Shown piece after piece: positions 8,264 through 57,799 of a stretch of DNA of 64,000 nt; the stretch's first letter is position 1; every line of letters starts with the position of its first letter. The position numbers and the translations under genes are program-made. Origin of the DNA: an uncultured Acinetobacter sp. (GTDB taxonomy: Bacteria > Pseudomonadota > Gammaproteobacteria > Pseudomonadales > Moraxellaceae); contig NZ_CANQTS010000005.1 in assembly GCF_947626835.1 (NCBI RefSeq), positions 1 through 64,000 on the forward strand, written 5' to 3'. The notes below the pieces were generated by a model that did no database searches, was not told the origin of the DNA, and worked only from the letters and a program-made list of their open reading frames with translations.

Positions 8264-8293
8264 AAAAAGCCTGCAGATGCAGGCTTTTCTTTT
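8264..8293 (+). terminator. Terminator after ftsK
   Basis: aaaaagcctgcagatgcaggcttttctttt. Confidence 0.85.
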
Positions 8294-8310
8294 AGCTTCA
8301 TTGGCTTAAA

Positions 8311-8598: not shown

Positions 8599-8693
8599 CG
8601 CAATCTCCTTGGCTTGTTGTCAATCATTAAAAAGGCAAAATAACTTGCGCTATTTTGCCTTGATTCAATTTGCTTGACTAATCAGAATTGAGA

Positions 8694-8966: not shown

Positions 8967-8967
8967 C

Positions 8968-9789
8968 TTAAGCTCCAAATAGTCGTGCTAACCAACCTTT
9001 TTGTTTGACTTCTAGGTGACGATAAGGACGATCTTCGCCTAAGAAACGCGCCACAAGGTCATCATAAGCTTGGCCTGCAGGTGAGTCTGTGTACAAAATA
9101 GCCGGCTTACCTTCGTTAGAGGCTTGTAAGATGCTCTTGCACTCAGGAATGACACCTAAGGTCGGGACTTTTAAGATATCTTTTGAAATATCGTCAATCG
9201 TGAGCATTTCTTGTTTTTCAGCACGTTCTGGATTAAAACGTGTAATACATAAATGTTTACGAATTCGACCTTCGTTGTTTTCTACTTTTTTGGTTTTGCT
9301 GTCGAGCATGCCAATAATACGATCTGAGTCACGCACTGAAGAAATTTCAGGATTGGTTACAATGATTGCTTCATCGGCATGGTACATGGCTAAAATCGCA
9401 CCACGTTCAATACCGGCAGGCGAGTCACAGATAATATAATCAAACTCTTGTGCGAGTTCGTCCATGACACGTGCGACACCTTCATCGGTTAAGGCATCTT
9501 TATCACGCGTTTGTGATGCAGGTAAGATATAGAGGTTTTCAATGTCTTTGTCACGAATTAAGGCTTGTTGTAAGCGTGCTTCGTTATTTAAGACATTGAC
9601 AAAATCGTACACCACGCGGCGCTCACAACCCATGATAAGATCTAAGTTACGTAAGCCTACGTCAAAATCAATAACAACAGTTTTGTGGCCACGTAGGGCT
9701 AAACCTGTTGCAAACGATGCACTTGTTGTAGTTTTACCTACGCCACCTTTGCCTGATGTTACGACAACAATTTTCGCCACCGAATCCAC
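8968..9789 (-). CDS. minD: Septum site-determining protein MinD
   Basis: VVTSGKGGVGKTTTSASFATGLA deviant Walker A; C-terminal amphipathic helix KGWLARLFGA. Confidence 0.97.
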   Translation of the reverse strand: MDSVAKIVVVTSGKGGVGKTTTSASFATGLALRGHKTVVIDFDVGLRNLDLIMGCERRVVYDFVNVLNNEARLQQALIRDKDIENLYILPASQTRDKDALTDEGVARVMDELAQEFDYIICDSPAGIERGAILAMYHADEAIIVTNPEISSVRDSDRIIGMLDSKTKKVENNEGRIRKHLCITRFNPERAEKQEMLTIDDISKDILKVPTLGVIPECKSILQASNEGKPAILYTDSPAGQAYDDLVARFLGEDRPYRHLEVKQKGWLARLFGA

Positions 9790-9845
9790 TCCTGTTAGGG
9801 TTTAAATACGCAGTTTTATGACGTATTTTGGTGATTATTTATACA

Positions 9846-10550
9846 TTAAAATTCTAAAGCTTCAAATACAAGCTCTTGAGCGTCATTTAAATAAATATGT
9901 ACAGGTTTTTTGGTCATATGAGCCGGGATATCATCCGCAACACAGTACGTACCTGCAATTGAAACCAACTCCGCTTCTAAGGAGTGGCAAAAGATGCGTG
10001 CTGCATGATTGCCGCCTGCACCGGCAATCACTCTACCTCGTACACTACCATAAATATGTATGTTTCCAGAAGCGATCACTTCTGCACCACTGTTCATTCC
10101 TGCACTTAAAATGATATCGCCGTGGTCTTGTACAAGGCATTGACCCGTACGCAACATTTCATTGTGATAAGAAGTTGCATGATGAATTTTTGCCGCAGCA
10201 GGCTGTGCTTCATCTTGCGTTGGTGCGGCAGTTTCCACCACTTGTTCTTGTGTGGCTTTAATCCGCTGCAAAGGACGGTCAGCCGGCAACACTGGAAATT
10301 GAATTAAACGTGCTGCATCGCCCAAAATTCCATCCACCACCGCCATAGGTTGTAAATCTAAACTGATTAACAATTGAATAAGAGCAATCAGCTCTTGTTC
10401 AACGGTTGAATCTAAGATGACCAACGTGCCTTGTGAGCCAGTGTCTTTGAGCATCTGGGTCAGTTGTTCTCGGATCGCACGATGATCATTTGTATCAAAG
10501 GTTAATCGGGTAAAATTAACCATTCTGCCGGTGATCCGGATATCCGCCAT
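9846..10550 (-). CDS. minC: Septum site-determining protein MinC
   Basis: [57 protein letters not shown] beta-helix domain; upstream of minDE. Confidence 0.95.
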
Positions 10551-10653
10551 ACTTGTTCCTTAAAACTTCTTTTTTAGGTCGAAGTCATGTTATTAAATAG
10601 AGCAAATCCTAGACCAATTTGCATGATTTCTCTAGCGTATCCGTTAAATATTT

Positions 10654-11718
10654 TCATGCCTTAGGTTCTTGCTCTGGTTGTTTTTGTTCTAGCACTTGTT
10701 GCCATTGTTTAATCTTCACTTGCTCACGTAAGGCTTCTAAACTTTCAAACACAGCAGATTCAACCAAACGGTCAATTTCAGGGTTATTTTCAATGGCAAT
10801 TTGACTGACTTTGTTGGCAATCATGCGATAGGTGGCATTTTCTTGGCGTGAAGATTGATGGGTAAAGGGTTGTAGTAAACCTTGGCTAATATTTTCACCT
10901 AAACGCTGTCCAATGCTTTGAATTTGTTGTTCGATACGTCCACCTACCAATGGAATTAAACGCAGCATTTGCGACAACTCAGGCGTATCTTCAATGGCTT
11001 TATTGACCACGATCCCCACATTTTTGGCAATTTCATGGCGTTGCGCTTGTAGTTCTTTGCCTAAAGATTCTTGTAACACATCTGTTAAAGCAGTGGCGAG
11101 CATCTCACGGTGGTGATTGACCAAATCTTCAATATATTTTTTATGTGTGGTACTGGTGCTCAGCTCATGTTTCACTGCATTAATAATGGTTAAAACAATA
11201 CGACTGGTCAGTTCTTCCATCACCAAACGATAATAAAAATTGCCACGCGCGTACCAGCGCTGCGGAATGACTTTATAGCCATGACTATGTAAGTTATAGG
11301 CGATGGCAAATGCACGTCCTAAACGTAAAAAACGGAACATTGGCAAAATAGAAATAATTTCATACCAATGAATAAACGGGAAAAACCACCAACGTTGATG
11401 ATGCTTAAAGCCAATCGCAATCAGCCAACGAATAGCAAGTTCAATGGCTAAAAATGAGGTAAACCAACCTTCTGTGGTTTTAACCCAAGGATGTAGCGCT
11501 TGCTCATAAAAATCTAACACTTGCGGCAGTTGTACGAAGTTAAATAACCATTCGGCATAGTCGCTCATTAAAAATGCATTGGCGCTTAAGCAAAATAGGT
11601 TAAAGATGATCAGCCCCATCATCAAAAAATCATAGACCAGTGCCACTTTCCATCCCCATGAGCCTTCTTTGACGAAGTGAAAGGAGGATTTTAAGACTTT
11701 GTGTTGAGGCTGTTTCAT
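10654..11718 (-). CDS. Ion-transporter/voltage-sensor-like membrane protein
   Basis: Several hydrophobic N-terminal segments including SILPMFRFLRLGRAFAIAYNL (S4-like), followed by a soluble helical C-terminus. Confidence 0.55.
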   Translation of the reverse strand: MKQPQHKVLKSSFHFVKEGSWGWKVALVYDFLMMGLIIFNLFCLSANAFLMSDYAEWLFNFVQLPQVLDFYEQALHPWVKTTEGWFTSFLAIELAIRWLIAIGFKHHQRWWFFPFIHWYEIISILPMFRFLRLGRAFAIAYNLHSHGYKVIPQRWYARGNFYYRLVMEELTSRIVLTIINAVKHELSTSTTHKKYIEDLVNHHREMLATALTDVLQESLGKELQAQRHEIAKNVGIVVNKAIEDTPELSQMLRLIPLVGGRIEQQIQSIGQRLGENISQGLLQPFTHQSSRQENATYRMIANKVSQIAIENNPEIDRLVESAVFESLEALREQVKIKQWQQVLEQKQPEQEPKA

Positions 11719-11727
11719 GGGGTTCCC

Positions 11728-12654
11728 TTAGCTACGTTGCTCGGCAAGTTGCTGTTTCATTTGGCTGATTAATTCATCTTTATCACGCCACACTTGTTGC
11801 AGCCATTGATGAAATTGCACACGAAATTCACGATCATTTTCATAATCACCGTCTAAAATCCAACTTGGCAACTCAATTTTGCGTAGATTCACTGCAATTT
11901 GTTGTACGTCCCCCAACCAAAATTCGCTGTATTCAGGCACTTTTTCATCATACACGATGGTCATATCCACTAAAGCATCGACCTCTTTGCCTAAGATTTT
12001 TAAGGCTAAGGCTAAACCACCAGCTTTGGGTTTAAGGAGATGTTTATATGGTGATTTTTGTGCAGTATGCTTGGCTTGGGTAAAACGAGTGCCTTCTACA
12101 TAGTTGAGTAAAGTAAACGGCTGACTGAGCAACTGTTCACAGGATTTACGTGCTTCTTCAATGTCGCGGTTTTTCAGCTCAGGATTTTTGGCAATTTGGG
12201 CTTTGCTATGCCGCTTCATCATAGGGAAGCCTAAAATTTTAAAAGCCTGCCCCACCAAAGGAATGAAAATCAGCTCCCATTTGGTAAAAAAGCGCGTTAA
12301 CGGCATACGGTTTAAACCAATATACTGATTGACTGTAGTATCGACCCAACTTTGATGATTACAAATCATCAAATAACGTCCTTGGGTGGTCAACTCAAGT
12401 GCAGGGTCCACTTGAATATCCCATTTTAATTCAGGCAATACCCGTTCAATCAGATGGTTGTTGACGTTAATCCAACTATTGGCAAGCTTCACATTGGTCT
12501 GATCAATGTGCGGTGACTTCTTGATCAGCTTGGTCAGACCTAAACCTAAAATGGGTGCTCCATGGACAAAGCTGTTAGTGGTCATCACTGAGGTTACAGT
12601 GAGCGCTTGCTGTACTTTTTTGAGTAATGACGTACGTGGCTGTGATTTGGGCAT
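11728..12654 (-). CDS. Lysophospholipid acyltransferase (PlsC-like); ORF extends to 12738 but MPKSQPRT is the more plausible start
   Basis: NHQSWVDT (HxxxxD-type) and NYVEGTRFT motifs. Confidence 0.8.
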   Translation of the reverse strand: MPKSQPRTSLLKKVQQALTVTSVMTTNSFVHGAPILGLGLTKLIKKSPHIDQTNVKLANSWINVNNHLIERVLPELKWDIQVDPALELTTQGRYLMICNHQSWVDTTVNQYIGLNRMPLTRFFTKWELIFIPLVGQAFKILGFPMMKRHSKAQIAKNPELKNRDIEEARKSCEQLLSQPFTLLNYVEGTRFTQAKHTAQKSPYKHLLKPKAGGLALALKILGKEVDALVDMTIVYDEKVPEYSEFWLGDVQQIAVNLRKIELPSWILDGDYENDREFRVQFHQWLQQVWRDKDELISQMKQQLAEQRS

Positions 12655-12894
12655 CGGTCGACCTATAAGCAAAGTGAAGGTACATGGTGCTGCACAATAT
12701 AAGGGCTGATGAAAAAAATACAAACTGTTGCTTGGCAACTATGGAGAAAACATGAGGAAAAATAGCCTAAATTCTCGATATATATTACATAATGTAAAAT
12801 AAGGCTTTATTATTAACAAAAAATCAATGTTACAAATTTGATTTTTATTCCATGATTCATCCAGATTAAAAAACATCAAACAAGGAGGCATGCA

Positions 12895-13527
12895 ATGCGT
12901 GCATTAGTCATTACAGCTGTAGCAGGGGCGTTGGCACTTACTGGTTGCCAAAGTATGGAATACGATAAAGCAGCACTTGGTACAGGCTTAGGCGCTCTAC
13001 TCGGTGCCGGCGTTGCTTACTCAAATGCTGACAAAGATAAAATGGGTCAAGCGGCTGCGATTGGTGCGGTACTTGGTGGTGGTGCAGGCTTACTTCTTGA
13101 TCGTAAAGAAAAGCGTTTAAAAGAAGAGTTAGCAGGTACAGGTATTGATGTTGGTCGTAACCAAGATGGTTCAATCAACCTTGTGATGCCATCGGTTACA
13201 TTTGCAACTAACTCTGCTGCCATTCAAGGTCAGTTCCAATCTGCGTTAAATGATGTTGCCAACGTATTACGTGAAGATGGTGCATCAAACAAGTTAGCGC
13301 TTGTGATTCATGGTCACACCGATAACACAGGTACAGATGCGGTCAATAACCCATTGTCACAAAACCGTGCTAACTCAGTGAAAAATTACCTTGCAGCTCA
13401 AGGTATTTCTGCAAGCCGCATGACAGCGCGTGGTTATGGTTCAACTTCACCAATCGCAGAAAACACAACTGCTGCGGGTCGTGAACAAAACCGCCGTGTA
13501 GAAATTACAGTTTACGAAACCAACTAA
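12895..13527 (+). CDS. OmpA-family lipoprotein (glycine-zipper plus OmpA C-terminal domain)
   Basis: Lipobox LALTGCQS; glycine-zipper GLGALLGAGVAY; OmpA motif HGHTDNTGTDAVNNPLSQNRANSVKNYLAAQGI. Confidence 0.92.
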   Translation: MRALVITAVAGALALTGCQSMEYDKAALGTGLGALLGAGVAYSNADKDKMGQAAAIGAVLGGGAGLLLDRKEKRLKEELAGTGIDVGRNQDGSINLVMPSVTFATNSAAIQGQFQSALNDVANVLREDGASNKLALVIHGHTDNTGTDAVNNPLSQNRANSVKNYLAAQGISASRMTARGYGSTSPIAENTTAAGREQNRRVEITVYETN

Positions 13528-13544
13528 GTTGTCGTAAATAAAAA

Positions 13545-13571
13545 AGAAACCACCTTCGGGTGGTTTTTTTA
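13545..13571 (+). terminator. Terminator after OmpA-family gene
   Basis: aaaccaccttcgggtggttttttt. Confidence 0.88.
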
Positions 13572-13652
13572 TGAGTAATGGGCAATTTTTTTGATTAGGC
13601 AATCGAGTGGTTGATGACTATAATCAGGCCTTAAATCTAAAGAGGATGGAAT

Positions 13653-15689
13653 ATGTCGACCGCAAGTCAGCTCAACGACAAGCAACTTGAAGCCATGAAA
13701 TACACTCAAGGACCCTTGTTAGTACTTGCAGGGGCAGGTTCAGGTAAAACCTCGGTGATTACCCGTAAAATCGCGTATTTGGTGCAGCATTGTGGTATTC
13801 CCGCTTATAAAATTACCGCCATGACCTTTACCAACAAAGCGGCACGTGAAATGAAAGAGCGTGTTTCTAAATTGTTGTCGCGTGAGGAATCTAAAGGTTT
13901 ATCGGTATCGACTTTCCATACCTTTGGTTTAAACCTGTTGCGTTTAGAGCTCAAACATACGCCACTGAAAAACAATTTTTCCATTTTAGATGCCGATGAT
14001 TGTAAGCGTATCTTAATGGATTTGATGCATCGTGATAATCTATCCGGTGCAGAGAGTAAGGATTTAATTGCCAAAGCCATGAAGAAAATTTCCGATTGGA
14101 AAAATGATCTGATTGCACCCGAGCAAGCGCATACTACCTGTGAAACCCAAGAAGATGTACAGTTTGCCCATTTGTATCAATTGTATGAGCGCAATTTACG
14201 TGCCTATAACGCCGTAGATTTTGACGATTTAATTGTCATGCCCACCCGTTTATTGCAAGACAATGCTGAAGTGCGCGATAAATGGCAAAACCGTGTGCGT
14301 TATTTATTGGTGGATGAATATCAAGACACCAACACGGCGCAGTATATTTTGGTCAAATTACTGGTGGGGGTGATGGGCCAATTTACCGCGGTGGGTGATG
14401 ATGACCAATCGATCTACGCATGGCGCGGCGCGAAACCTGAAAACATGGCACAGCTCAAAGAAGATTTTCACAATTTAAAAGTGATTAAGCTTGAACAAAA
14501 CTATCGTTCAACCAGCCGTATTTTAAAAGCCGCCAACTCAGTGATTGAAAACAATCCGCATATTTTTGATAAAAAATTATGGTCGGATAAAGGTCATGGC
14601 GAAGAGATTCGGGTCATTACCTGTCGTAATGACGATGATGAAGCAGAACGTGTGGTCAAAGATTTACTCACCCATAAACTGATGCAAGGTAAATCTTGGA
14701 AAGATTATGCGATTTTGTATCGTGGTAACTTCCAAGCACGGGTGCTTGAAACCCAACTGCGCCAAATGCAAATTCCGTATAAATTGTCGGGCGGTCAGTC
14801 GTTCTTCGCGCGTGCTGAAATTAAAGACGTGATGAGTTATTTGCGCTTAATCATTAACCCTGAAGATGACAGTGCATTTTTACGTATTATTAATACCCCA
14901 AAACGTGCTATTGGTCCTGTCACTTTAGAAAAATTGGGTTTATTTGCGCAAGAAACCAATCAATCTTTATTGGCTTCAGCAGGTGATCAGCGTTTAAGTT
15001 TATCTTTACCTAAAAAAGCCACCTCCCAGTTGCTTGAGTTCTATGAGTTTTTAGACGGCTTTACCCGTAACTTGCTTGAAGATGATGAGCCCGTGCCGAT
15101 TATTCGTCAAATGATGAATGAAGCCGGTTATATCGACTATGTAAAAGAGCAAGCTGCGACCCCTGCGCAAGAAAAAACCAAGCTGGATAACATTGAAGTG
15201 CTGTATAGCAGTATTCAAAGTTTGATTAATCGTGCCGAAGATGTCGATGAGAAAAACATTGAAAGTGTGATTCGTAAAATGGTGCTGCTGGATATGTTGG
15301 AACAACAACAAGAAGAGCAAGACACCGATAAAGTCAATTTAATGACCTTACATGCGGCTAAAGGCTTAGAGTTCCCATATGTCTATATGATTGGTTTAGA
15401 AGAAGAAATTCTGCCACATAAAAACTCAATTGCCGCAGAAACTGTCGAAGAAGAGCGTCGTTTGATGTATGTGGGCATTACCCGTGCGCGTCAGGGGTTA
15501 ACGCTGACCTTAGCTGAGCAGCGTAAAGCCGGTGGTCAAATGAAACAAATGACGCCAAGCCGTTTCTTAGATGAATTACCGCAAGACGATTTAGACTGGT
15601 TAGGGCGTAAAAAGAAAGCCAGCAATATTGACCCGAAATTGCAAGCGCAACATTATTTGGAAAATTTACGTGCGCTGATTAAGCGCTAA
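13653..15689 (+). CDS. rep: ATP-dependent DNA helicase Rep (UvrD/Rep family)
   Basis: LVLAGAGSGKTSVITRKIAYL, VDEYQDTNTAQY, DDDQSIYAWRGAKPENM, TLHAAKGLEFPYVYMIGLEEEILPH. Confidence 0.95.
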   Translation: MSTASQLNDKQLEAMKYTQGPLLVLAGAGSGKTSVITRKIAYLVQHCGIPAYKITAMTFTNKAAREMKERVSKLLSREESKGLSVSTFHTFGLNLLRLELKHTPLKNNFSILDADDCKRILMDLMHRDNLSGAESKDLIAKAMKKISDWKNDLIAPEQAHTTCETQEDVQFAHLYQLYERNLRAYNAVDFDDLIVMPTRLLQDNAEVRDKWQNRVRYLLVDEYQDTNTAQYILVKLLVGVMGQFTAVGDDDQSIYAWRGAKPENMAQLKEDFHNLKVIKLEQNYRSTSRILKAANSVIENNPHIFDKKLWSDKGHGEEIRVITCRNDDDEAERVVKDLLTHKLMQGKSWKDYAILYRGNFQARVLETQLRQMQIPYKLSGGQSFFARAEIKDVMSYLRLIINPEDDSAFLRIINTPKRAIGPVTLEKLGLFAQETNQSLLASAGDQRLSLSLPKKATSQLLEFYEFLDGFTRNLLEDDEPVPIIRQMMNEAGYIDYVKEQAATPAQEKTKLDNIEVLYSSIQSLINRAEDVDEKNIESVIRKMVLLDMLEQQQEEQDTDKVNLMTLHAAKGLEFPYVYMIGLEEEILPHKNSIAAETVEEERRLMYVGITRARQGLTLTLAEQRKAGGQMKQMTPSRFLDELPQDDLDWLGRKKKASNIDPKLQAQHYLENLRALIKR

Positions 15690-15705
15690 ATTTGATTGAT
15701 TAGGA

Positions 15706-16164
15706 ATGTACATGAAAGTTCAAGTTAAAGTATTAGATTCACGTTTAGGCAATGAATGGCCAATGCCAAGTTATGCCACACAAGGTTCAGCGGGTCTCGA
15801 TTTACGCGCATGCGTATCTGAAACCACAGTGATTGAACCGGGTCAAACTGTATTGGTTAAAACCGGTTTATCCATTTATATTGAAGATGTGAATTTTGCT
15901 GGTTTAATCTTGCCGCGTTCAGGTTTAGGGCATAAACACGGCATTGTATTAGGTAATTTGGTTGGTTTAATTGATTCAGATTATCAAGGTGAACTTATGG
16001 TTTCGGTTTGGAACCGGAGTCAAACTGCATTTAGCTTAGAGCCGGGCGAGCGTTTAGCACAATATGTATTGGTGCCTGTAGTACAAGCACAATTTGAAAT
16101 GGTGGATGAGTTTGTGGCCACAGAACGTGGTGCAGGTGGTTTTGGACATACTGGTCAAAACTAA
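15706..16164 (+). CDS. dut: dUTP diphosphatase
   Basis: [48 protein letters not shown] motifs. Confidence 0.96.
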
Positions 16165-16358
16165 AGCATCTTGCATGGATAGATAAAGCCTATTCATTAG
16201 GCTTTATCGCTTTTTTGTTGAAAAAATTGCATAAATATATTAAAAGCTCACTCAAGGTTCTTCGTTTACCCAAAGATAAAGATAACTGCAAAAACCTGCC
16301 TATTTGTGTGAAATGTACAACACTTTGTATGTTTTATTGCCTAGATCAATGATTAAAA

Positions 16359-18711
<2,353 letters not shown>

Positions 18712-18713
18712 AT

Positions 18714-18742
18714 TAAAAGCCTCCTAAATGGAGGTTTTTTTA
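18714..18742 (+). terminator. Terminator after argB
   Basis: aaaagcctcctaaatggaggttttttt. Confidence 0.85.
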
Positions 18743-18838
18743 TGCCACCTCATGCAAGCCTAACAACCCGAGCTAGATTTGAAAAGCCCATTTAACTCAT
18801 GCACAATAAGCCATTATTTATGCCCATGAGAAAGAATT

Positions 18839-19687
18839 ATGTGTCAACTGCTCGGAATGAACTGCGCAACTCCAACGGATATTACTTTCTCATTTCGTGG
18901 CTTTTCACAACGTGCAGGGATTACCTCCGATCATTGTGATGGTTTTGGCATCGCCTTTTTTGAAGACAAAGCCTGTCGTTTATTTGTCGATAATCAATCT
19001 GCAGTTGAATCGCCGATTGCTGAGTTAATTCGTAATTACCCCATTAAATCACGCAATGTGATTGCGCATATTCGTAAAGCCACACAAGGCAAAATTAATC
19101 TAGAAAATTCACATCCCTTTAGCCGTGAACTTTGGGGGAGACAGTGGATTTTTGCACATAATGGCGACCTTCATGATTTTGATCCGCCATTAAGTGGACG
19201 TTTTACCCCTGTGGGCAATACCGACAGTGAGCGTGCTTTTTGCTATTTATTAGAACAATTGGTGAAGCGCTTTGGTTATGAAGAACCGAGTTTAGCGCAA
19301 ATTTTTGATTTGCTGGTCGAGATTTCGCCAAGCATTGCCGAGCATGGCACGTTTAATTTTTGCCTATCGAATGGTCAAGCTTTATTTGCGTATAACATTA
19401 CCAAATTGCATTGGTTGGTACGCGAATATCCATTTAAACCTGCACAATTGATTGACCTTGATGTCGAAGTCGATTTTAGTCAAGTCACGACCCCTGAAGA
19501 TCGTGTGGCAGTCATTACCACTGAACCTTTGACTCAAAATGAGACATGGTGTGCTTTTAAACCCGGTCAGATGATTTTATTCAAAGATGGTCAGCCAATT
19601 AAAGATGAAATCACATTTATTGCACGTTTAGAGCGAGAGCGCATAAATCCAAGCTTAAAACGCATAACTAAAGCAGATCAGTATTAA
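18839..19687 (+). CDS. Class II glutamine amidotransferase (YafJ-like)
   Basis: MCQLLGMNCATPTDITFSFRGF N-terminal Cys; HIRKATQGK and FAHNGDL motifs. Confidence 0.9.
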   Translation: MCQLLGMNCATPTDITFSFRGFSQRAGITSDHCDGFGIAFFEDKACRLFVDNQSAVESPIAELIRNYPIKSRNVIAHIRKATQGKINLENSHPFSRELWGRQWIFAHNGDLHDFDPPLSGRFTPVGNTDSERAFCYLLEQLVKRFGYEEPSLAQIFDLLVEISPSIAEHGTFNFCLSNGQALFAYNITKLHWLVREYPFKPAQLIDLDVEVDFSQVTTPEDRVAVITTEPLTQNETWCAFKPGQMILFKDGQPIKDEITFIARLERERINPSLKRITKADQY

Positions 19688-19943
19688 GCAATGCGATCAA
19701 GTTGGTGTTTTAATATGCCAACTTGATATTCTTAAAATAAAATAAAAATAATGTTAAATATAAATTGGTTAAAAAATATCTGACCTTTTTAGTTGGCTTA
19801 AAATAATTTTTATATGTTAATCATATATTTAAGTGAATAAAACCCCTTTTTATATAATCCCTAGTAAATCAGTTTATTTTTATTCTAGTCAATTCAATAT
19901 ATGATCAATTTTAACGAATTTGGGGATACCGATAGGTAGTCGT

Positions 19944-46776: not shown

Positions 46777-47172
46777 TTAACGATTTTGTCCCATCACGCC
46801 GCGAATGGTGCTGAGGATGTCAGCAGGTAATACCACAGTTTTGGCATTGTTGGATTTGGCTATATCTTGCATGGCTTTGACATATTGCTCACCCAATAAA
46901 TAGGCCACAGGAATTTCTTTGTCACCTACAGCCGACGACACCATTTCAATGGCTTTTTGTGAGGCTTGGGCCAACACCACTTGCGCTTCTGCATCACGGC
47001 GTGATGCTTCTAAACGACCGTCTGCTTCTAAAATTGCCGCTTGTTTTTCACCATCAGCTTTGGTGACTGTGGCACGACGTTGACGTTCTGCCGCAGCTTG
47101 TTCTTCCATGGCGGTTTGCATGGTGTGCGATGGTTTAATATCCTGAATTTCGACCGTTTTTATTTGACACAC
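46777..47172 (-). pseudogene. 3' fragment of interrupted SPFH/stomatin (QmcA-like) gene
   Basis: KTVEIQDIKPSHTMQTAMEEQAAAERQRRATVTKADGEKQAAILEADG... continues the N-terminal half encoded at 54796-55281. Confidence 0.93.
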
Positions 47173-47180
47173 GACACCAA
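47168..47180. repeat. Terminal inverted repeat, left in window
   Basis: cacacgacaccaa; 12/13 match to reverse complement of 54799-54811. Confidence 0.75.
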
Positions 47181-47196
47181 AAAAATAGAATTAACT

Positions 47197-47290
47197 TTCT
47201 ATATGTATGAAAATAAAGGTATTTATTGGTTTTTAAAAATTCTATATAGAATTCTATATTTTTTTAGATTTTTAAGTAGAATTTCTATAT
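47197..47290. repeat. Four direct TTCTATAT motifs near element end
   Basis: TTCTATAT at 47197-47204, 47240-47247, 47252-47259, 47283-47290; another at 54751-54758 near the opposite end. Confidence 0.65.
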
Positions 47291-47346
47291 TTCCTTAAGG
47301 TGAAAAATATACAGTAAATGATTAAATTAAACCTATTAAAAGTATG

Positions 47347-47378
47347 AAAAAGCCAACATTCTACTGTTGGCTTTTTAA
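47347..47378 (-). terminator. Terminator after cargo gene
   Basis: aaaaagccaacattctactgttggcttttt hairpin just downstream of the 507-aa ORF. Confidence 0.85.
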
Positions 47379-47401
47379 ATTGTAGAAATCAACAAACAAC
47401 A

Positions 47402-48913
47402 TTAGTGAGCAGCAAGCATCGAGCCTGATTGAACAACATGAATTTTTGTTCCTAACAAAGACTCTAAGAATAATTCAGGTGCAAGCCTTTCATATACGAA
47501 TAAAAATTCTTCTGTAAGAGCTAAATAATTTTCATACTGTCCAGTTACTACACTTCGCCATATACTCGGTCTATACCTAACTAAAATAGAGAGAGAATAC
47601 AAGATTACAGTAGCAATGCATCTATAATCATTGATTGATGAGAATATTGGTAATATGTAGCTTGTTGATGTAAAAGGGCTTTTATGAAGTTTGATAATTT
47701 CATACCAATATTTATGATCAGGATGATTTAGCAAAGCTCTGAAATGCAAATAAGGTTCATTTGTTTCTATATACTCAATCTGTTCGAGGGGCAGATCTAA
47801 ATTTTCAATATCTTCTAAAGTTTTACTGCAAGATTTATCGGTAATTTTTAGATATGTTGCGCCACGATCTTTAAATTTTAGCCCATTAGCTTCCATATCG
47901 TAGTTAAACAGCAACCAATTTTCTTGATTCTCTGTAAGCATACCCAACAAGTCTTCTAGTTCAGGTACGCGAGAAAATAGTTCTATGAGATTAGTAACAT
48001 AAGGGTTGGTTATATCAATATCTTCTGCTCTTCTAGGTTTTTTTGAAGGAAATTCTGATACATCGTATTCTAAAAATTCTACCCATTTTTTAAAAAAGCC
48101 ATTTGATAATACTCCAACTACAAATCCCTCAAAAGCATTATCGGTAAGCGAGTCAAAAGTATATAGACCATGACCAAATTTGGTCATGTCTTCAACTTCT
48201 TGTAATGATGTTGGGCCATTTGGAGAAGCTAACATCTCAGCAGATGCAAATGCGATAGCTCCATAATATAGACTTATAATTCGTTGATTAGTTTTTTGAG
48301 TAATTGCATTTTCAAAATAATCACAGCCATTTTGGACGCAGAAAGCTAAGCCTGATGCCTTAGAAATAATATCATCCTGCGATAAATTTATACCTAGCTG
48401 TTGGCTACGTTGAATAACTAATTTTTCGGCCAAACCTTTTGTTTTAAATTGGCGTATCCGAGTCCAAATTTGGTTAATAGGGTTCTCGGATTGAATGTGG
48501 TTATTAAACTCTTTAAATAAAGTTTTAGGTCTTTGAGGATTAGGGGAAGAAATTTTACCGTTTGAAGCAGATTTATTCCATTCTAATACATAATCCTGAA
48601 TATCTTTAGATTCTATAACCTTTGTAGAAATGCCGTATGCAAATGATTCAATATGGTAAAAACTACCGTTAATGATTATTAGATCAACATCACTATCTAA
48701 TCTTTTATAAACTGAATTATTTGTAGCAGAACAATATAAAAAGCCTATTTTATAAGTGGCATTATTCTTCTTGAGTTGGATTAATAGGTATTCTCCGTCT
48801 TCTATAGCATCGGTGATTACACACTGCCAGTTATGTTTTTCAAAAGGCTCAATAATTTTCCTTTTTGCATCGTTAGTTAAGATATTTAATCTTTGCTGTT
48901 TACCTGTATCCAT
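47402..48913 (-). CDS. Cargo protein: unassigned N-terminal alpha/beta domain plus YaaC-like C-terminal region (ORF extends to a GTG at 48925)
   Basis: C-terminus YRCIATVILYSLSILVRYRPSIWRSVVTGQYENYLALTEEFLFVYERLAPELFLESLLG resembles YaaC-like proteins; N-terminal about 110 aa not recognised. Only non-recombination gene in the element. Confidence 0.6.
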   Translation of the reverse strand: MDTGKQQRLNILTNDAKRKIIEPFEKHNWQCVITDAIEDGEYLLIQLKKNNATYKIGFLYCSATNNSVYKRLDSDVDLIIINGSFYHIESFAYGISTKVIESKDIQDYVLEWNKSASNGKISSPNPQRPKTLFKEFNNHIQSENPINQIWTRIRQFKTKGLAEKLVIQRSQQLGINLSQDDIISKASGLAFCVQNGCDYFENAITQKTNQRIISLYYGAIAFASAEMLASPNGPTSLQEVEDMTKFGHGLYTFDSLTDNAFEGFVVGVLSNGFFKKWVEFLEYDVSEFPSKKPRRAEDIDITNPYVTNLIELFSRVPELEDLLGMLTENQENWLLFNYDMEANGLKFKDRGATYLKITDKSCSKTLEDIENLDLPLEQIEYIETNEPYLHFRALLNHPDHKYWYEIIKLHKSPFTSTSYILPIFSSINDYRCIATVILYSLSILVRYRPSIWRSVVTGQYENYLALTEEFLFVYERLAPELFLESLLGTKIHVVQSGSMLAAH

Positions 48914-48966
48914 TATTACTTCCACGCCCTTATATTACTTACATTTTAATCAAAATAAATTGATAA

Positions 48967-49392
48967 CTAATTGTTAAATTTAACTATGTACTTATTTAAT
49001 GCTTCTTTAGTTTCTTTCAATTGCTGCTGCAACAAATGATTGTGATAGATCAGGGAGTTATTCTCACTTAACTTAATTTCATATAGTTCCTGTAATTCAG
49101 CGAGTTCTTCTTTTAACTCTTGAATTTGCTCTTTTTCAGCTTTTTTTTGCGCTTTTTTATTAGCATTAATATCTTTCTCAGTAGCTTTACCAGTACGAAT
49201 TTGCTCTGCTTCTTTAATCTTGATAAGAAGACTAGCTAATTCAGGACGTTGTTTATTTACAGAACCTCTTTTAAGTCCTGCTTCCAAAGCTACTGCATCA
49301 TTATTGATTTTATAAGGTGGCTGTACTATTAAAGTTTTACCATCTATCAGTCTTTGCAATGCTGCTTCAAGTTTTTCTACTGCTTTAGACAT
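48967..49392 (-). CDS. TnpC-like small HTH plus coiled-coil accessory protein (ORF extends to 49407)
   Basis: KINNDAVALEAGLKRGSVNKQRPELASLLIKIKEAE HTH-like segment then Lys/Glu/Leu-rich coiled coil; start overlaps the end of the upstream recombinase gene. Confidence 0.7.
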   Translation of the reverse strand: MSKAVEKLEAALQRLIDGKTLIVQPPYKINNDAVALEAGLKRGSVNKQRPELASLLIKIKEAEQIRTGKATEKDINANKKAQKKAEKEQIQELKEELAELQELYEIKLSENNSLIYHNHLLQQQLKETKEALNKYIVKFNN

Positions 49393-51349
49393 TTTTGACA
49401 GCCTCAATCAATGTAATTCGTTTCTCTAGAACCTTATTTATAGATGCAATTTCTACCTTTAATTGGTCATGGAAATAGTTTCCTGACTCATATTGAGATA
49501 ATTGTCTTTCCATAGTGCTTTTTACAATTTCAAGTTTCTTAACTGAGGATTGGTCAAACACAGCATTTTCACACGTTACACAGGCTGTGGTATAAGCAAA
49601 GCCTAGGCGATCACAGTTTGTTTCAAGAGTGCAGCCACCAAGAGGGGTTTGTTTATAATGTATTTGACCTGCTCTAACTAATTTTTCAGTATTCTTTCGA
49701 TCAGAATTAAAAATTTTTCTTAGACCTTCTTTCTGAGTTTCTAAACCTATACCCCTAGCACCAAATAGCATTTCATCCTGCTCAATGATATTTAAAAACA
49801 GTTCAGTGGTATGTTCGATTCTTTCAGTATGAAACTCTCTAATGAGGTCAGACTCAAAGAGGAAATTCTTGCTATCAACAGCATTGTTTCCATAGTGCAG
49901 AGTCATGTCATAACTAATGTGTTGAAGCTGTTTTTTTAAAGTTGGTATTTTCACTAAACCACTTCTAATGGAATAGACAGTAAGCGATCTTCTGAATTGA
50001 TGTGTTTTAAATCGCCACGGTTTTCCAATTTCTATGTCTTCATAGCTCTCCCAATCTTCTAAAGGATTGAAAACATATAATTCATTCAAATCTTCTTTGG
50101 TGAAATTTATGGGATTTAAAAGGCGTTCAACCCAATTATTCATTCCTTGATAAACTTCGGTTACTGGTATGCCATATCTAGGTTGTGGTGTGCCTGTATT
50201 TCCAAATGAAGGAAATAAAGGATAATCCTCTAACTCCAACACTTTTAGGTTTTTATGCTTTCCGTAGCTACCTGAAAAGAACTTTTTAAGTGAATAGAAC
50301 TCTCTATGAATCTCACAAATAACCTTTAAACATTCAATAGCCTTAGAGATTTTGTCACTTGTAATCCATGTAGTACATCTAAGACCTGAAACGGTTTTCT
50401 TGGAAGTAAAACCATTTAAAAGATAGATTTTCTCACCATTATAGGTGGTTGTTGAGTAAGCATTAATTGGAAGGTTCTGCAATTCATTGATACGCATACC
50501 ACTAAAGCACATAATCACCATCGCTGCTATAGATTGAAAGCTTGTGAATAATGAATAAGACGATACTTGATTTTCTATTCCAACAGCTTCATGGAGTGCA
50601 TCTAATTTATAGTGTGATATTAGCTCTCTATAATCTTCGACATTAAATTTTTCCGAATAAAGCTCCAAGCCAAATTGGCTAATTTGATTAATTTGAGAAT
50701 GGTAGTGGTCAATATAATCTAAACTTTTAGTAATAAAATCAGCGTAGATATTTGTAGGGATCAGAGTTGTTTGCTTGGCATCTGACTCCATATTCTTAAC
50801 GAATTTTTCTAATTTTTTTATTTCCTTTTCAGTAATACCAAAGTTATCAAAACCATATTTAAGTTTGGTATTATTGATAGCGGTGAACTCTTTAACATAT
50901 TTTGAAGCTGTTGATTTTTTTAGATTACAAAGATATTTCAAAATATCATTCATTGCTTCTTTACATAATCTCAAATTATTGAAATTACAGTTATGTTTAA
51001 GGCAGATATTGGCTAATTTTTTTAAACGTTGCCCTTGTTTAATCAACACGTTAATTAATCGTGCGGAACTATTCTGCTGAACATCCATTATGACAGAATA
51101 AAGCACCAGTTTGATCTGTTCGATTAAGATTTTAGCATTCTCTGAGTCATTATCTAGTTGGAATATAACTCTTGAAGAAGATTGCTTTTTATAAGCGTAA
51201 CAAAGCAAATCCCACTCAGCATCTTTATATCTAGACAGAGGATTTCCTTCACCATCAAATGAAATGATAAAGTCAGGTTGAGGTAATGAATCAAAATTAC
51301 AGTCATTTACCTCTGTTAAAAGGTGATTATTAAATTGCTGTTCAATCAT
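49385..51349 (-). CDS. Large tyrosine recombinase, catalytically complete by inspection
   Basis: GMRINELQNLP (R), HQFRRSLTVYSIRSG (HxxR), LQHISYDMTLHYG (H...Y); C-terminal Cys cluster CTLETNCDRLGFAYTTACVTC. Confidence 0.82.
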   Translation of the reverse strand: MIEQQFNNHLLTEVNDCNFDSLPQPDFIISFDGEGNPLSRYKDAEWDLLCYAYKKQSSSRVIFQLDNDSENAKILIEQIKLVLYSVIMDVQQNSSARLINVLIKQGQRLKKLANICLKHNCNFNNLRLCKEAMNDILKYLCNLKKSTASKYVKEFTAINNTKLKYGFDNFGITEKEIKKLEKFVKNMESDAKQTTLIPTNIYADFITKSLDYIDHYHSQINQISQFGLELYSEKFNVEDYRELISHYKLDALHEAVGIENQVSSYSLFTSFQSIAAMVIMCFSGMRINELQNLPINAYSTTTYNGEKIYLLNGFTSKKTVSGLRCTTWITSDKISKAIECLKVICEIHREFYSLKKFFSGSYGKHKNLKVLELEDYPLFPSFGNTGTPQPRYGIPVTEVYQGMNNWVERLLNPINFTKEDLNELYVFNPLEDWESYEDIEIGKPWRFKTHQFRRSLTVYSIRSGLVKIPTLKKQLQHISYDMTLHYGNNAVDSKNFLFESDLIREFHTERIEHTTELFLNIIEQDEMLFGARGIGLETQKEGLRKIFNSDRKNTEKLVRAGQIHYKQTPLGGCTLETNCDRLGFAYTTACVTCENAVFDQSSVKKLEIVKSTMERQLSQYESGNYFHDQLKVEIASINKVLEKRITLIEAVKNV

Positions 51350-51351
51350 TA

Positions 51352-53340
51352 TTAATCCATTAATTCAGTTATCAAGTCTATTTGTTGTTGCCAGTATTCA
51401 GCATAGTTTCCATTTTCAATATCTCTTTCCACTGCTTTAATAATTTCAGCAGTTTCAGGATAAGCAGCCACCGCTTGTTCCAAAATTTCATCAATTCTGT
51501 GCCTGATATACAGAACTTCATCTTCTTTATTTCTATTGATAGATAAGAAAGTCATTTCTTTAAGAGAAAGTAATTTCTTAATATCTATAGCATCTGTGTG
51601 TAAAACATATTTGTCACAGAAAAGGCATGATGCAGGATTACTACAATTTGGCTGACTAATGTTCTGAAATCCAGCATCCAACTGAGGTTGTTGGGCACTA
51701 CTACATTGGCCTATAGGAGTGGTAACATTTTCTTCAATTTGGCCAATTTGAATTTTTACAGGAACAGGCTTCTCACTAACTCTATTTCTTTGGAATGAAG
51801 CTTTATAAACAGCATTAAAATACTCGTTCATTTGACCATAGAATTGTTCAGGAGTAGCTTCTGAGTAGGCTTTTTCAGTTGTCTTAGGGGTATTACCTGC
51901 TTTTTCAGCAATTACCACAGAACTGCCTGATTTCTGATGGTAATAGTTAGTGATACTTGCCCTTGCTATAGATGCAGGTATGTAATCAATACTAGGAAAT
52001 TTTGATTTAAGCCAATTCTTATATGCACCTGAATAATGTTCAAGTTTATAAGGTGCAACTAATCTAGTAATTTGATCTTCAGATTTTCTTTCTACCTCAT
52101 TAATTGAAAATAAAAGCGTTTTTTCTTCAAATAAAGGATCAAGAGGAAGGTTGTTAAGAACCCATTCCCGAAATTCTATGAACTCCTTAGCGATCTTCTT
52201 AAAAGAAGCTGTGAAACTCACAGGAACTAATTTTTTGTTTGCTCTATTCTTAATTAAATATGTGCGTATTGTTTTATTGGTCGCTATTAGGTTGTCAAAG
52301 CTATCGATCAGCAATTGAGTAACTAAAGATGGATTTATCGCACTATCGCAGAATATACACGCTACAAAAGCATTTACCGCTTTATTGATTAGCCTGATCC
52401 TAAATAGGTTAAAAGGTTTATTTCGCTCTTCATAAGTCGCCTTGTATTTCTCATAAATTAGTATAAGCCTTTCATCTTTTAGGTTTTTTTTGATTGCCAC
52501 ATATCGAGCTTTAGCTTTTTCGTAATCTAGAAACTCACCGTTCTCACCAATGAAAATATCATAATATTCACTGGTTCTATTGGTATGTGACTCAATACAA
52601 TGAACACCAAGTTTCTTGCTTTCAATTATTAATGGGAAAACTTTATCACCCATTAAAAAGGTCTTAATGTTTCTAAAAATTAAAAGGTTAACGTTGGAAT
52701 ATGCTTTAAGTTCATTTTGACCTACTGGTTTTCTATGATTGTTTTGTTGCAATGGAGCTTGCCAAGCAACTTTTTTGACATTGAGAGGTTCAAGATCAAT
52801 ATTAAAACCAATGAAATTAGCAAGAAGGGCTTGTTTCATATAAAAAGTATTGCCTACAGTTTCATCTTTTAACGCCTTTTGAAACTCAAGGTATAAATAT
52901 TCTGAGTATTTTTTATATGCATTAAGTTGCGAGTTTTTATCAGACCAATCTTGTTCTATTCCTAATGAATCTAATTCTTGTAATATCCGAACTAATAAGT
53001 GAATATCGCCTTTTATTGTTGAATAGGAATCCCCAATCACAATATTACGAGCTATATAGCGTCTAATTGTGTTAAGGGTGGTGCTATCTCTTAATGTACC
53101 CCTTACAGGTGATACGATATGTCTAATGCGATTAGGAGCTTTTTTAGTCGCAGCTACCCAATCCTTGAAACATATCTTAGCCAAGTCGATTTTTGAAGTT
53201 TGATTCACAATATTAAGTGTGAGGATCATGTTTTGAAGAGGTACATTTTCTGATTTCAGGAATTCTTCTGGAGTCACATATACCAAATCACGTTCCTGAT
53301 GGAACGATACAATATTATTCAACTTAAATTCCCCCCTCAT
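51352..53340 (-). CDS. Large tyrosine-recombinase-like protein with degenerate active-site residues
   Basis: PASIARASITNYYHQKSGSS...AEKAGNTPKTTEKAYSEA aligns by eye to the HxxR...GHxxxxTTxxYY block with His replaced; C-terminal Cys cluster CSNPASCLFC. Confidence 0.68.
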   Translation of the reverse strand: MRGEFKLNNIVSFHQERDLVYVTPEEFLKSENVPLQNMILTLNIVNQTSKIDLAKICFKDWVAATKKAPNRIRHIVSPVRGTLRDSTTLNTIRRYIARNIVIGDSYSTIKGDIHLLVRILQELDSLGIEQDWSDKNSQLNAYKKYSEYLYLEFQKALKDETVGNTFYMKQALLANFIGFNIDLEPLNVKKVAWQAPLQQNNHRKPVGQNELKAYSNVNLLIFRNIKTFLMGDKVFPLIIESKKLGVHCIESHTNRTSEYYDIFIGENGEFLDYEKAKARYVAIKKNLKDERLILIYEKYKATYEERNKPFNLFRIRLINKAVNAFVACIFCDSAINPSLVTQLLIDSFDNLIATNKTIRTYLIKNRANKKLVPVSFTASFKKIAKEFIEFREWVLNNLPLDPLFEEKTLLFSINEVERKSEDQITRLVAPYKLEHYSGAYKNWLKSKFPSIDYIPASIARASITNYYHQKSGSSVVIAEKAGNTPKTTEKAYSEATPEQFYGQMNEYFNAVYKASFQRNRVSEKPVPVKIQIGQIEENVTTPIGQCSSAQQPQLDAGFQNISQPNCSNPASCLFCDKYVLHTDAIDIKKLLSLKEMTFLSINRNKEDEVLYIRHRIDEILEQAVAAYPETAEIIKAVERDIENGNYAEYWQQQIDLITELMD

Positions 53341-54694
53341 TGCTGAGGTCTATATCTTCATACAACATATTTTCAAATGCTTGATTGGTATCTAGGCTTA
53401 GTTCTTCATACCCTGCGTACTGCATGTATAAGTGAGTAGTTTCAACATCTTTATGACCCATGCGCTGCTTGAGATAGAGCATTGCTTGGTCAGGCGCACA
53501 ATTATGTTTAAGCAAGTTACGAAGCATATTTAGGCCAAATGTCGCTCTAAAGTCATGGAATGAGAAATGTCTAATTTCTTCATTATTGATCTTCATTTCA
53601 TTTTGAAGTTTTCTCAGCAGCTCACGTACAGCACCACCTGTTTGCAGAGAATATTTCTTGTCCAAAGACTCATCATTTTTTCTTAGAACTTTCTCTGCTC
53701 TAGATGTATAGAAAGGATTTCCATATCTACTTAAAAAGACATAATTTGAAGCCGATACCCCATAAAAACTCAGTTCAGCTCTTGCCATCCATTCCTCTGA
53801 ATGAACGTAATTCCATAAGTTTTCAACAACACGCACAGGTATTCGTAATGTGTATTTAGCCCCATCTTTGGTGTCAATTGTTCCACCAACGCTTATGGAG
53901 TAGGTATTGTCGTTTGAATTGATCTTACTGTTTCTTTTAAGGTCTAAGATATGTTGTTTTTTAAGCGTACATACTGTTTGAAGTCTAGCACCAGTATGAA
54001 GAGCGAAAGAACACATTAAGTACAGTTCAATTGGAGCTTTCTTTAGATATTTATCAAGAATTTTTTGTTCAGCAACAGTCAAAGGGTGAAGACGACCACC
54101 ATCAACAATTTCGTCAGAAGTAACAGTTCTACTTTTTACTTTAATTGCTAAATTTGTTGTTTCAACTTCTCTAGTCTGCCGATCACCAAATTGGCTCTTT
54201 TGGGTAATGCGTGTAAGTAAGGTTTTATAAGCACGACCTTTTATTTGATCGCTGAATAGCTTGTATTCGATGCAGAATTTATAAAGTTTAATAACATTTC
54301 TCATTGACTCACTGGCATAAGTGTCTGAGTAAGTACCACTATCTATTTGATCATTCAAATATTTAAAGTACAAAAATGTAGGACGTTTTTCTTCTTCAAA
54401 TGGAAAAACTTCAAAATCTAAAGAATTTTCTTCTAAAAAACGCAAGTAGTTTAAAAGATGGTATGCACGACTAATGATAGTTGTTGGGTCTTTGGTTTCG
54501 GTAATTAGTAGTTCTTGAAAATAGATTGATGCTATCTGCCATGTTTCTCCATTGCTTTTAAGAAGTGTTGGGAATTTCTCAGCTTTGAAATTATCGACAA
54601 TATAGAAGGATGCTGTTTCAGGGTTATAACGTTGAGGTCGGAAATCTTTAATGAACTTAATGTCTGCTTTTGATATTTGAAAACTGGACTGCAT
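53324..54694 (-). CDS. Tyrosine recombinase (XerD/phage-integrase-like)
   Basis: HTGARLQTVCTLKK (R), HDFRATFGLNMLRN (HxxR), MGHKDVETTHLYMQYA (H...Y). Confidence 0.92.
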   Translation of the reverse strand: MQSSFQISKADIKFIKDFRPQRYNPETASFYIVDNFKAEKFPTLLKSNGETWQIASIYFQELLITETKDPTTIISRAYHLLNYLRFLEENSLDFEVFPFEEEKRPTFLYFKYLNDQIDSGTYSDTYASESMRNVIKLYKFCIEYKLFSDQIKGRAYKTLLTRITQKSQFGDRQTREVETTNLAIKVKSRTVTSDEIVDGGRLHPLTVAEQKILDKYLKKAPIELYLMCSFALHTGARLQTVCTLKKQHILDLKRNSKINSNDNTYSISVGGTIDTKDGAKYTLRIPVRVVENLWNYVHSEEWMARAELSFYGVSASNYVFLSRYGNPFYTSRAEKVLRKNDESLDKKYSLQTGGAVRELLRKLQNEMKINNEEIRHFSFHDFRATFGLNMLRNLLKHNCAPDQAMLYLKQRMGHKDVETTHLYMQYAGYEELSLDTNQAFENMLYEDIDLSNEGGI

Positions 54695-54772
54695 TACACA
54701 AATGCCCCATTTAACTGTCTAAGTCTATTATATATTTCAATCCTTAAAAATTCTATATTTTATTTTATATTT

Positions 54773-54811
54773 TTGGTGTTATGTGGTTTTTTATATTATT
54801 GGTGTTGTGTG
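54773..54811. repeat. Element end: tandem copies of ttggtgttRtgtg, the outer forming the terminal inverted repeat
   Basis: 54773-54785 ttggtgttatgtg and 54799-54811 ttggtgttgtgtg (12/13), 26 bp apart. Confidence 0.7.
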
Positions 54812-55281
54812 AAGGTAATGCCCCAATCAGAAATATCATCGGAAATGGCGGCTTTCAGTTTGGCTTTAATATGATCACGCGAAGACAGGGCATCATCGAG
54901 GTCCATTTCACCAACAATGGAACGCAGTGACGTTTGCACCATGTTTTGAATCGCCCATGAATAGTTTTCAATCCCATACACGGCTTTTTCAGGTGTGGTT
55001 AAATTAATATATGCCACGGCATTCATCAGCAATACCGCGTTATCACGGGTAATCACTTCTTGGGATGGAATATCTAACACAATATCTTTGGTGGTGACTT
55101 TATACGCCACTTCATCTACATAAGGAATGACAAAGTTTAAGCCTGGTTGCAAGGTGGTGTGGTATTTACCTAGGCGCTGAACAATCCATTTATAACCTTG
55201 CGGTACAATACGTACCCCTTTAAAAATGGTAATGGCGACAAAAGCCAATAAAATAAAAACAATAATGGTGCTAATCGGCAT
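54796..55281 (-). pseudogene. 5' fragment of interrupted SPFH/stomatin (QmcA-like) gene
   Basis: TM N-terminus, GVRIVPQGYKWIVQRLGKYHTTLQPGLNFVIPYVDEVAYKV; natural sequence ends at SDWGIT and runs into FTQHQ* from the element. Confidence 0.93.
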
Positions 55282-55286
55282 GTTAT

Positions 55287-55754
55287 TTAATCTCGTTGTG
55301 GTGTGTTATGGGGTTCAACCAACAGGTCGTTGCCTAAAATATCGATGACGCGAACCCGCTCACCGACTGTAACTGGATGTATGCTGCGGCATTGCCATTC
55401 ATCGGCACCTAATACAGGCACAGAAAAACGCACTTTGATGTGCTCGTGGCTTAAATGCGTTTCGATCACCATGCCCACTTGACCAATGGTGGCTTCGCGC
55501 GATAAGCCGGCTTTGGTTTTGTCAATGGACAAAGGTTTGATCCATCTAAACCATGCAAAAGTGGCGCTGACTGAAAAGATCATCCATAAAATCACTTGTA
55601 AGCTTGGGCTTAAACTGGGCACTAACCAATAAATCAAGCTGACCAAAATGGCCGCCACACCAAACCAAAGGGCGGCAAAAGAGGGCAAAATCAGTTCGGC
55701 TAAAATGAGTAAAATACCCAAGGCAAACCAATGCCAAGGCTCAAGGATTAACAT
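55287..55754 (-). CDS. NfeD family membrane protein (partner of SPFH protein)
   Basis: Hydrophobic N-terminus, GQVGMVIETHLSHEHIKVRFSVPVLGADEWQCRS...GERVRVIDILGNDLLVEP OB-fold domain; upstream of SPFH gene. Confidence 0.88.
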   Translation of the reverse strand: MLILEPWHWFALGILLILAELILPSFAALWFGVAAILVSLIYWLVPSLSPSLQVILWMIFSVSATFAWFRWIKPLSIDKTKAGLSREATIGQVGMVIETHLSHEHIKVRFSVPVLGADEWQCRSIHPVTVGERVRVIDILGNDLLVEPHNTPQRD

Positions 55755-56588: not shown

Positions 56589-57799
56589 ATGCCATCTATT
56601 TATGTGTTGTTGTTTTCATTGTATTGGGCACAAGGTTTGCCGGTGGGGTTTATGACGCATGCTTTACCGGTGATTTTACGGCACGAAGGGCTGTCGCTTG
56701 CACACATTGGTGGCTTTGGACTATTGATGCTGCCATGGTCAATCAAAGTACTGTGGGCGCCTGTGATGGATCGCGTGGGGCAGTACCGACAGTGGATTAT
56801 AGGCTTACAACTGTTGATGTGTGTCAGCCTGATGATTTTGGCTTATATTCCTATTGATCAGTTGCAACACCGCCATGTGTTAATGATATTTTTTGTGGTG
56901 TTGTTTGTGATGAATATGGCCGCTGCCAGTCAAGATATTGCCACCGATGGCTTGGCGGTGCGTAGCCTAAATCATCAGCAACAACATTGGGGCAATAGCG
57001 TACAAGTGATTGGCTCACGGCTTGGTTTTATTGTGGGTGGTGGTACACTGCTATGGCTAATTGATGTATGGCAGTGGCACAGTGTCATTTTAGGCTTAGC
57101 GCTATTGGTTGCGCTCAACACCCTGCCAATCCTGTTTCAGCAACAGTCTTCTTTACATGCCAGTCAGCCAAAAAGCCGATCACGTTTTGATGTCAAAGCC
57201 TATTTGTGTGATCTAAAAATTCGCCCTGAACTATGGGCGTGGATTGGGGTGTTGCTCAGTTTTAAACTGGTCGATGGGCTAAGCGGTGCCATCATTAAAG
57301 CCTTGTTGGTGGATGTAGGGCTAAGCCTACAACAGATTGGTTTATATATTAGTGGGCTTGGGGCCGTGGCCGCTTTGCTTGGTGCGGCTTTAGGTGGGTT
57401 GTTACTTAAATATTACTCGCGTCCTAGAGCGTTGTGTATTTTATCATGGCTAAAATTAAGCACCTTGTTGGGCTATGTAGGGCTGGCCTATGCACTTGAG
57501 CAACAATACCGCATGGCGCCGTGGTTGATTTATAGCTTACATGCCCTAGAAGATTTACTGGCCAGTATGTTATTGGTGGTGATGCTTAGCTTGATTATGC
57601 ATTACAGTCGCCCAGCATGGGCAGCTACAGATTTACCCTACAAGTGTCGATCATGGCGACGCTAAGCGGTGTGTTGTATGTGCTCAGCGGCATTGTGGCA
57701 GATGCATTGGGTTATATAGATTATTTTATGCTCTTACTTGGTTTGGGAGTGCTTAGTCTTTATCCAATTTATCGCTGGAAGAAATATTATAGCGCTTAA
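56589..57799 (+). pseudogene. MFS transporter (AmpG-like), split by a one-base frameshift
   Basis: ORF 56589-57665 runs into ...AATDLPYKCRSWRR*; the true C-terminus FTLQVSIMATLSGVLYVLSGIVADALGYIDYFMLLLGLGVL continues in another frame (57617-57799). Confidence 0.85.

Follow-up and report, generated by a model that had tools for sequence, protein, structure and literature searches.

We analyzed a 64,000-nucleotide stretch of DNA from an uncultured Acinetobacter sp. (contig NZ_CANQTS010000005.1, positions 1 to 64,000 of the forward strand; hereafter, the window), in which a 7,644-bp insert at 47168-54811 divides a qmcA gene of the SPFH family in two. The N-terminal part of qmcA (54812-55281, reverse strand; Band_7 E-value 2.8e-30), which finds matches in 58 of 59 genus genomes, and the C-terminal part (46777-47161, same strand, also with a Band_7 match and collinear with 29 intact alleles) are both host DNA and both free of stops; the start of the listed C-terminal open reading frame, at 47172, falls within the end of the element. 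The adjoining nfeD gene (55287-55754, reverse strand; PF01957) lies outside the element. In all 29 relatives retrieved, qmcA runs uninterrupted across the junction, and comparison with these alleles set the exact ends of the insert at 47168 and 54811. The deduced empty site (attB), GGCAT-TACCTT-AAAAACGGTC, gives back the same reading frame as in the relatives (WGIT-LKTVEIQD), and the insert has a GC content of 32.7% against 42.1% in the flanking DNA. A preliminary description of this locus had reported a qmcA gene next to nfeD, cut into collinear halves by an AT-rich insert with a packed operon: all of these are present, and the limits that it gave for the insert are identical to those obtained from the 29 alleles. 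An artefact of gene finding or assembly was rejected, given that the two qmcA parts are collinear and in frame, that the junctions obey the 6-bp rule described below, and that the insert differs in base composition and carries coding genes of its own.

The ends of the insert form an imperfect inverted repeat of 13 bp. The left end (motif C, CACACAACACCAA... in element orientation; 54787-54811) was recognized by junction comparison and by the agreement between ends, and the right end (motif C', CACACGACACCAA...; 47168-47192), which is inverted with respect to the left, agrees with it at 12 of 13 positions and, over 25 bp, at 19 of 25. Because a 12/13 agreement was reached by 2 of 200,000 random 13-mer pairings inside the element, it is unlikely that the terminal repeat arose by chance. 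At the left junction the sequence is GGCAT-TACCTT-CACACAACACCAA, and at the right it is TTGGTGTCGTGTG-TCAAAT-AAAAACGGTC. TACCTT (54812-54817, reverse strand), the 6 bp of target DNA adjoining the left end, agrees with the attB of relatives; TCAAAT (47162-47167, reverse strand, element orientation), the 6-bp footprint adjoining the right end as identified by comparison of attL, attR and attB, is absent from the attB of relatives, and we infer that it derives from the donor. Mobile elements of the published SE class follow a spacer rule by which 6 bp of attB lie beside C and 6 donor-derived bp beside C' (PMC9345347), and the window element shows this arrangement, with TACCTT by C and TCAAAT by C'. 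A sister element at another locus (L037), which has TTGCGG at both sides, is likewise consistent with the 6-bp rule.

Most of the insert is occupied by a four-gene operon on the reverse strand, intA-tfp-intB-srap. The first gene (53324-54694) encodes IntA, a tyrosine recombinase of 456 amino acids (aa) that matches PF00589 (E-value 1.5e-11), and the third (49385-51349) encodes IntB, a large tyrosine recombinase of 654 aa; both carry the full R-H-R-H-Y set, which is complete in 94 of 94 IntA relatives and in 101 of 102 IntB relatives. The second gene (51352-53340) encodes a 662-aa Tfp-like protein with a recombinase fold, and the fourth (48967-49407) a small Srap-like coiled-coil protein of 146 aa when read from its listed TTG, a homologue of which occupies the same place in all relatives; its start is likely to be the ATG at 49393 instead. 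Overlapping first and third junctions and a 2-bp middle gap had been described previously and were found as such: intA and tfp overlap by 17 bp, tfp and intB are separated by 2 bp, and intB and srap overlap by 9 bp with the ATG start or 23 bp with the TTG. This succession of complete, altered, complete and small proteins is shared by the window and all complete related operons. Thus, where three recombinases had been proposed, IntA and IntB are complete, but the first catalytic Arg and the box-II histidines are missing from the 662-aa protein.

This altered protein has Asn at the Arg-I position (T, S, G or Y in some relatives), no first box-II His and a variable second one. Nevertheless, it is a tyrosine-recombinase-fold protein despite its altered active site, because its profile matches XerA and XerD (E-values 3e-5 and 6e-5) and its AlphaFold model (mean pLDDT 78) matches XerH and XerA in Foldseek (E-values 4e-4 and 1e-3). 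Tfp has been published as being without the RHRY motif (PMC10214605), a description with which two conserved residues contrast: the Tyr at the nucleophile position (Y492) is kept in 93 of 93 relatives and the box-II Arg (R460) in 92 of 93, and each is present in 51/51 sequences of a wider set that takes in both named SEs, SE-Pda04Ya311 and SE-PaeBT2436. A HMMER alignment pairs this Tyr and Arg with those of XerD and XerA, and K364 and R366 are present in all sequences compared. Four C-terminal cysteines of Tfp (window residues 546-575) are invariant across all groups, and IntB has an almost invariant set resembling them (residues 573-593); as judged from the sequences, these clusters suggest zinc-binding domains in both proteins.

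Published SEs carry an intA-tfp-intB-srap operon with complete IntA and IntB, their ends, C and C', are imperfect inverted repeats of 13-19 bp, and they occupy selected target sites in Gammaproteobacteria (PMC9345347, PMC10214605); the window has the same four genes in the same order, a full R-H-R-Y in IntA and the large IntB, a Tfp with a recombinase fold and an incomplete motif, and 13-bp ends with 12 matching positions, all inserted within the qmcA gene of Acinetobacter, a gammaproteobacterial host. Two named SEs could be anchored among the retrieved loci: one Tfp (L029) is 100% identical to that of pAQU1, so that SE-Pda04Ya311 is represented, and both published protein accessions of SE-PaeBT2436 sit in a single operon (L223). 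A tree was built from concatenated IntA, Tfp and IntB and rooted on a deeply diverged set of operons (group c, below); in it, the window clade and the SE-PaeBT2436 clade are joined with a support of 0.998, and SE-Pda04Ya311 falls outside both. Provided that the root does not fall within the window's own group, any group holding both named SEs therefore also includes the window element. Pairwise BLASTP of Tfp is in agreement with the tree: 63% of pairs match between the window group and the SE-PaeBT2436 group, and 8% between the SE-PaeBT2436 and SE-Pda04Ya311 groups. It had been held previously that membership of a named family could not be settled from sequence, but the element can be named an SE, because it matches SEs in its gene order, its active-site pattern, its ends, the 6-bp spacer rule and its phylogeny. 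We put the probability that the insert in qmcA is an SE-class mobile element at about 85%; as such, it is a previously undescribed and precisely bounded member of the published class.

Of 176 Acinetobacter species genomes, 21 carry related operons; the closest IntB among them is 37% identical, and no near relative occurs in the set. A search of named genomes yielded 80 loci, in Acinetobacter, Psychrobacter, Pseudomonas, Halomonas and many Betaproteobacteria (Cupriavidus, Herbaspirillum, Burkholderia, Paraburkholderia, Vogesella and Deefgea), with gene order conserved wherever the operon is complete. The four-gene block, which the preliminary description had proposed to seek in other genomes, has relatives at other sites and with other cargo. 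The sister element at L037 (7475-16251), with one half of a flotillin gene on each side, contains the Gabija genes GajA and GajB (13350-15700), and at L039 a type II CBASS-like set (phospholipase, E1-E2, cyclase and JAB; 14766-19749) directly follows the operon. The L037 and L039 (around 7537) elements are inserted in the same flotillin gene, each antisense to the gene but at its own position, so that three elements, together with that of the window in qmcA, reside in SPFH-family genes; this could possibly reflect either a target preference or chance. A second, distant four-gene operon of this class exists in the same genome as the window (L034, G000:C2:66500-86400, at 7657-13408), with an IntA that is 35% identical and an operon region conserved with other Acinetobacter operons. 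At L035 (18392-19234, element orientation), an S-formylglutathione-hydrolase-like gene is interrupted by the element and a full-length related open reading frame lies downstream (families judged by eye), an arrangement that recalls SE-6283, in which a copy of the target, bcp, is carried along. Group c (L165, L169, L177-L180 and L188) constitutes a third, deeply diverged four-gene group with smaller proteins, hosted by Pseudomonas and, by plasmid matches, by Burkholderiales and some Alphaproteobacteria. It may be GInt-like; we did not label it GInt because Arg-I is absent from its second protein too (e.g., in L178).

Several points weigh against the assignment to the SE class. The window's clade includes Betaproteobacteria, whereas the published SE survey contains Gammaproteobacteria only: either SEs range more widely than published, or such elements were filed by the survey authors under another name. 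By plain BLASTP, the window Tfp and Srap match Vibrionaceae SE proteins weakly or not at all, and the link of these two proteins to the Vibrionaceae SEs runs via the profile and SE-PaeBT2436. The activity of the element and its strand bias would carry over by analogy with tested SEs, and GInt elements were set apart by their published description. It is improbable, however, that the element is instead a GInt (a ginABCD island), for which ordinary excision could restore attB. GInts occur in Gamma- and Betaproteobacteria, as does the window's clade, their operon likewise comprises four genes, for three recombinase-type proteins and one small protein, and their cuts are staggered by 6 nt (PMC5385486, PMC10214605); yet it is the third protein, GinC, that lacks the first Arg, whereas in the window R286 is kept in the third protein and Arg-I is gone from the second. 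Moreover, 10-17-nt direct imperfect repeats are reported at GInt ends, as opposed to the inverted ends and non-repeating TACCTT/TCAAAT flanks of the window element, and the tree unites the latter with SE-PaeBT2436. Insertions at ABC-transporter genes and ssb were sought among the retrieved operons and beside 30 ssb loci, and none were found.

Kinship with Tn554, RIT or Gamma-Mobile-Trio (GMT) elements had also been proposed, and part of this stands: the element is mobile and a relative of the Tn554 kind with an extra protein, although it is itself neither RIT-like nor Tn554-like. A Tn554-type transposon would account for two complete recombinases, a small TnpC/Srap-like protein, a 6-bp footprint and specific targets, but consists of tnpA, tnpB and tnpC with no counterpart of Tfp (PMC10214605), and the window has an additional 662-aa Tfp-like gene. 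In RIT elements, all three recombinases are complete and 315-410 aa long, and the terminal repeats measure 34 bp (PMC10214605, Table 1); the window has proteins of 456, 662 and 654 aa, the second of them altered, and a 13-bp repeat. Both identities were rejected on the presence of Tfp, the recombinase sizes, the altered second protein and the 13-bp repeat, leaving them a negligible chance. There is a slim chance that the element is a GMT island under a different name, and GMT could be an overlapping name for part of the same superfamily: GMT islands are mobile, recombinase-bearing and rich in defence genes (as cited in PMC12715929), and the sister elements described above carry Gabija and CBASS. 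GMT nevertheless denotes a trio and the window has a quartet, and there was no GMT-named match in NCBIfam, for which the inclusion of GMT models is unverified; a generic recombination-associated model found no match either. Finally, the element might be an SE that is no longer mobile, a fixed remnant, as would fit its single copy in this genome and the lack of a close copy in the 176 Acinetobacter genomes. We consider this unlikely, because every gene is open and full-length, the catalytic residues are intact, the two ends match, and the halves of qmcA are stop-free.

If the window element behaves as the tested SEs do, IntA and IntB would cut both of its ends, C and C', with a 6-bp offset, and Tfp, as an altered recombinase-fold subunit, and Srap, as a coiled-coil helper, would complete the complex. 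Strand-biased recombination has been reported for tested Vibrionaceae SEs, including SE-Pda04Ya311, and by analogy recombination between attL and attR would exchange mainly one strand, host replication would then produce a double-stranded circular copy carrying the 6 bp of the left flank, and the donor copy would be retained, such that no empty donor site is formed. The circle would integrate at a preferred site, where the 6 bp that it carried would land beside C' (TCAAAT) and the target's own 6 bp would remain beside C (TACCTT). Circularization of the window element is accordingly expected to be strand-biased to the extent that the analogy holds. We infer that Tfp might sit where a second strand exchange would need the missing Arg-I, and this position could explain the strand bias. 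A more speculative possibility, to which we give limited credence, is that Tfp, in which Y492, R460 and K364 are kept superfamily-wide while Arg-I is replaced, usually by Asn, is a purpose-built recombinase subunit forcing one-strand exchange rather than a dead DNA-binding protein, and that the system spans Gamma- and Betaproteobacteria rather than Gammaproteobacteria only.

The cargo, previously regarded as minimal, is indeed small, but a 507-aa YaaC-like gene (47402-48925, reverse strand; PF14175, E-value 1.3e-20) had been overlooked. It is followed at its 3' side by an intrinsic-terminator-like hairpin with a 12-pair stem (47347-47376, reverse strand). The gene is 62% identical to genes on plasmids of E. 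coli, Citrobacter and Yersinia, and the plasmid homologues adjoin a recombinase-family gene (E. coli, Citrobacter) and a Tn3 transposase (Citrobacter). About 100 N-terminal residues of the protein are 28% identical to a protein encoded next to int in a P2-like Yersinia phage, and a full-length homologue is present in one other of 175 Acinetobacter genomes. Searches of the protein against PADLOC and PHROGs returned no match, and its single-sequence AlphaFold model has a pLDDT of 39. That it has a role in defence is no more than a reasonable guess, made because the L037 sister element carries Gabija and L039 has CBASS after its operon. Two further repeats lie near the ends of the element: at the left, upstream of intA, a pair of 26-bp direct repeats (81% alike; 54754-54805), and near the right end an AT-rich inverted repeat (47234-47287), which possibly provides candidate accessory binding sites. 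Elsewhere in the window, an MFS-transporter-like open reading frame of 358 aa (56589-57665) is overlapped by one in another frame (57617-57799), and the two (56589-57799) are perhaps one frameshifted gene.

SEs move antibiotic-resistance and defence genes, and their termini in Acinetobacter have been reported as mostly not definable (PMC10214605). With its exact ends, known empty site and single cargo gene, the window element offers a small natural test object, and the conserved Tyr and Arg of Tfp make the question of one-strand exchange approachable by point mutation. Betaproteobacterial operons with the SE gene order would extend the published host range. It is these clean ends in Acinetobacter, conserved Tfp residues and broader host range that lend the element its added interest.

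Among known systems, the Tn554 family shares with the window element one ordinary and one large recombinase, a small accessory protein and a 6-bp footprint, but has no Tfp and resides in Gram-positive hosts (PMC10214605). GInts share four essential genes and a 6-nt stagger, along with specific targets, and differ by having the altered protein third rather than second, direct end repeats and mostly large cargo (PMC5385486). SE-Pda04Ya311, SE-6945 and SE-6283 of Vibrionaceae have the same operon plan, 13-19-bp inverted ends and the rule of a 6-bp fingerprint or footprint (PMC9345347, PMC10214605), but their targets are bcp, insJ and the yaaA promoter, their cargo is different, and their Tfp is unrecognizable from that of the window by plain BLASTP. 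The nearest named group in the tree is SE-PaeBT2436, the tmexCD-toprJ-bearing SE of Pseudomonas, Klebsiella and others. It differs in its umuC-region target and large resistance cargo, and its sequence is distant (best window-to-group Tfp E-value about 1e-6); common to both are the gene order, complete IntA and IntB, a small fourth protein, and a Tfp in which Arg-I is replaced by Asn and the Tyr and box-II Arg are kept.

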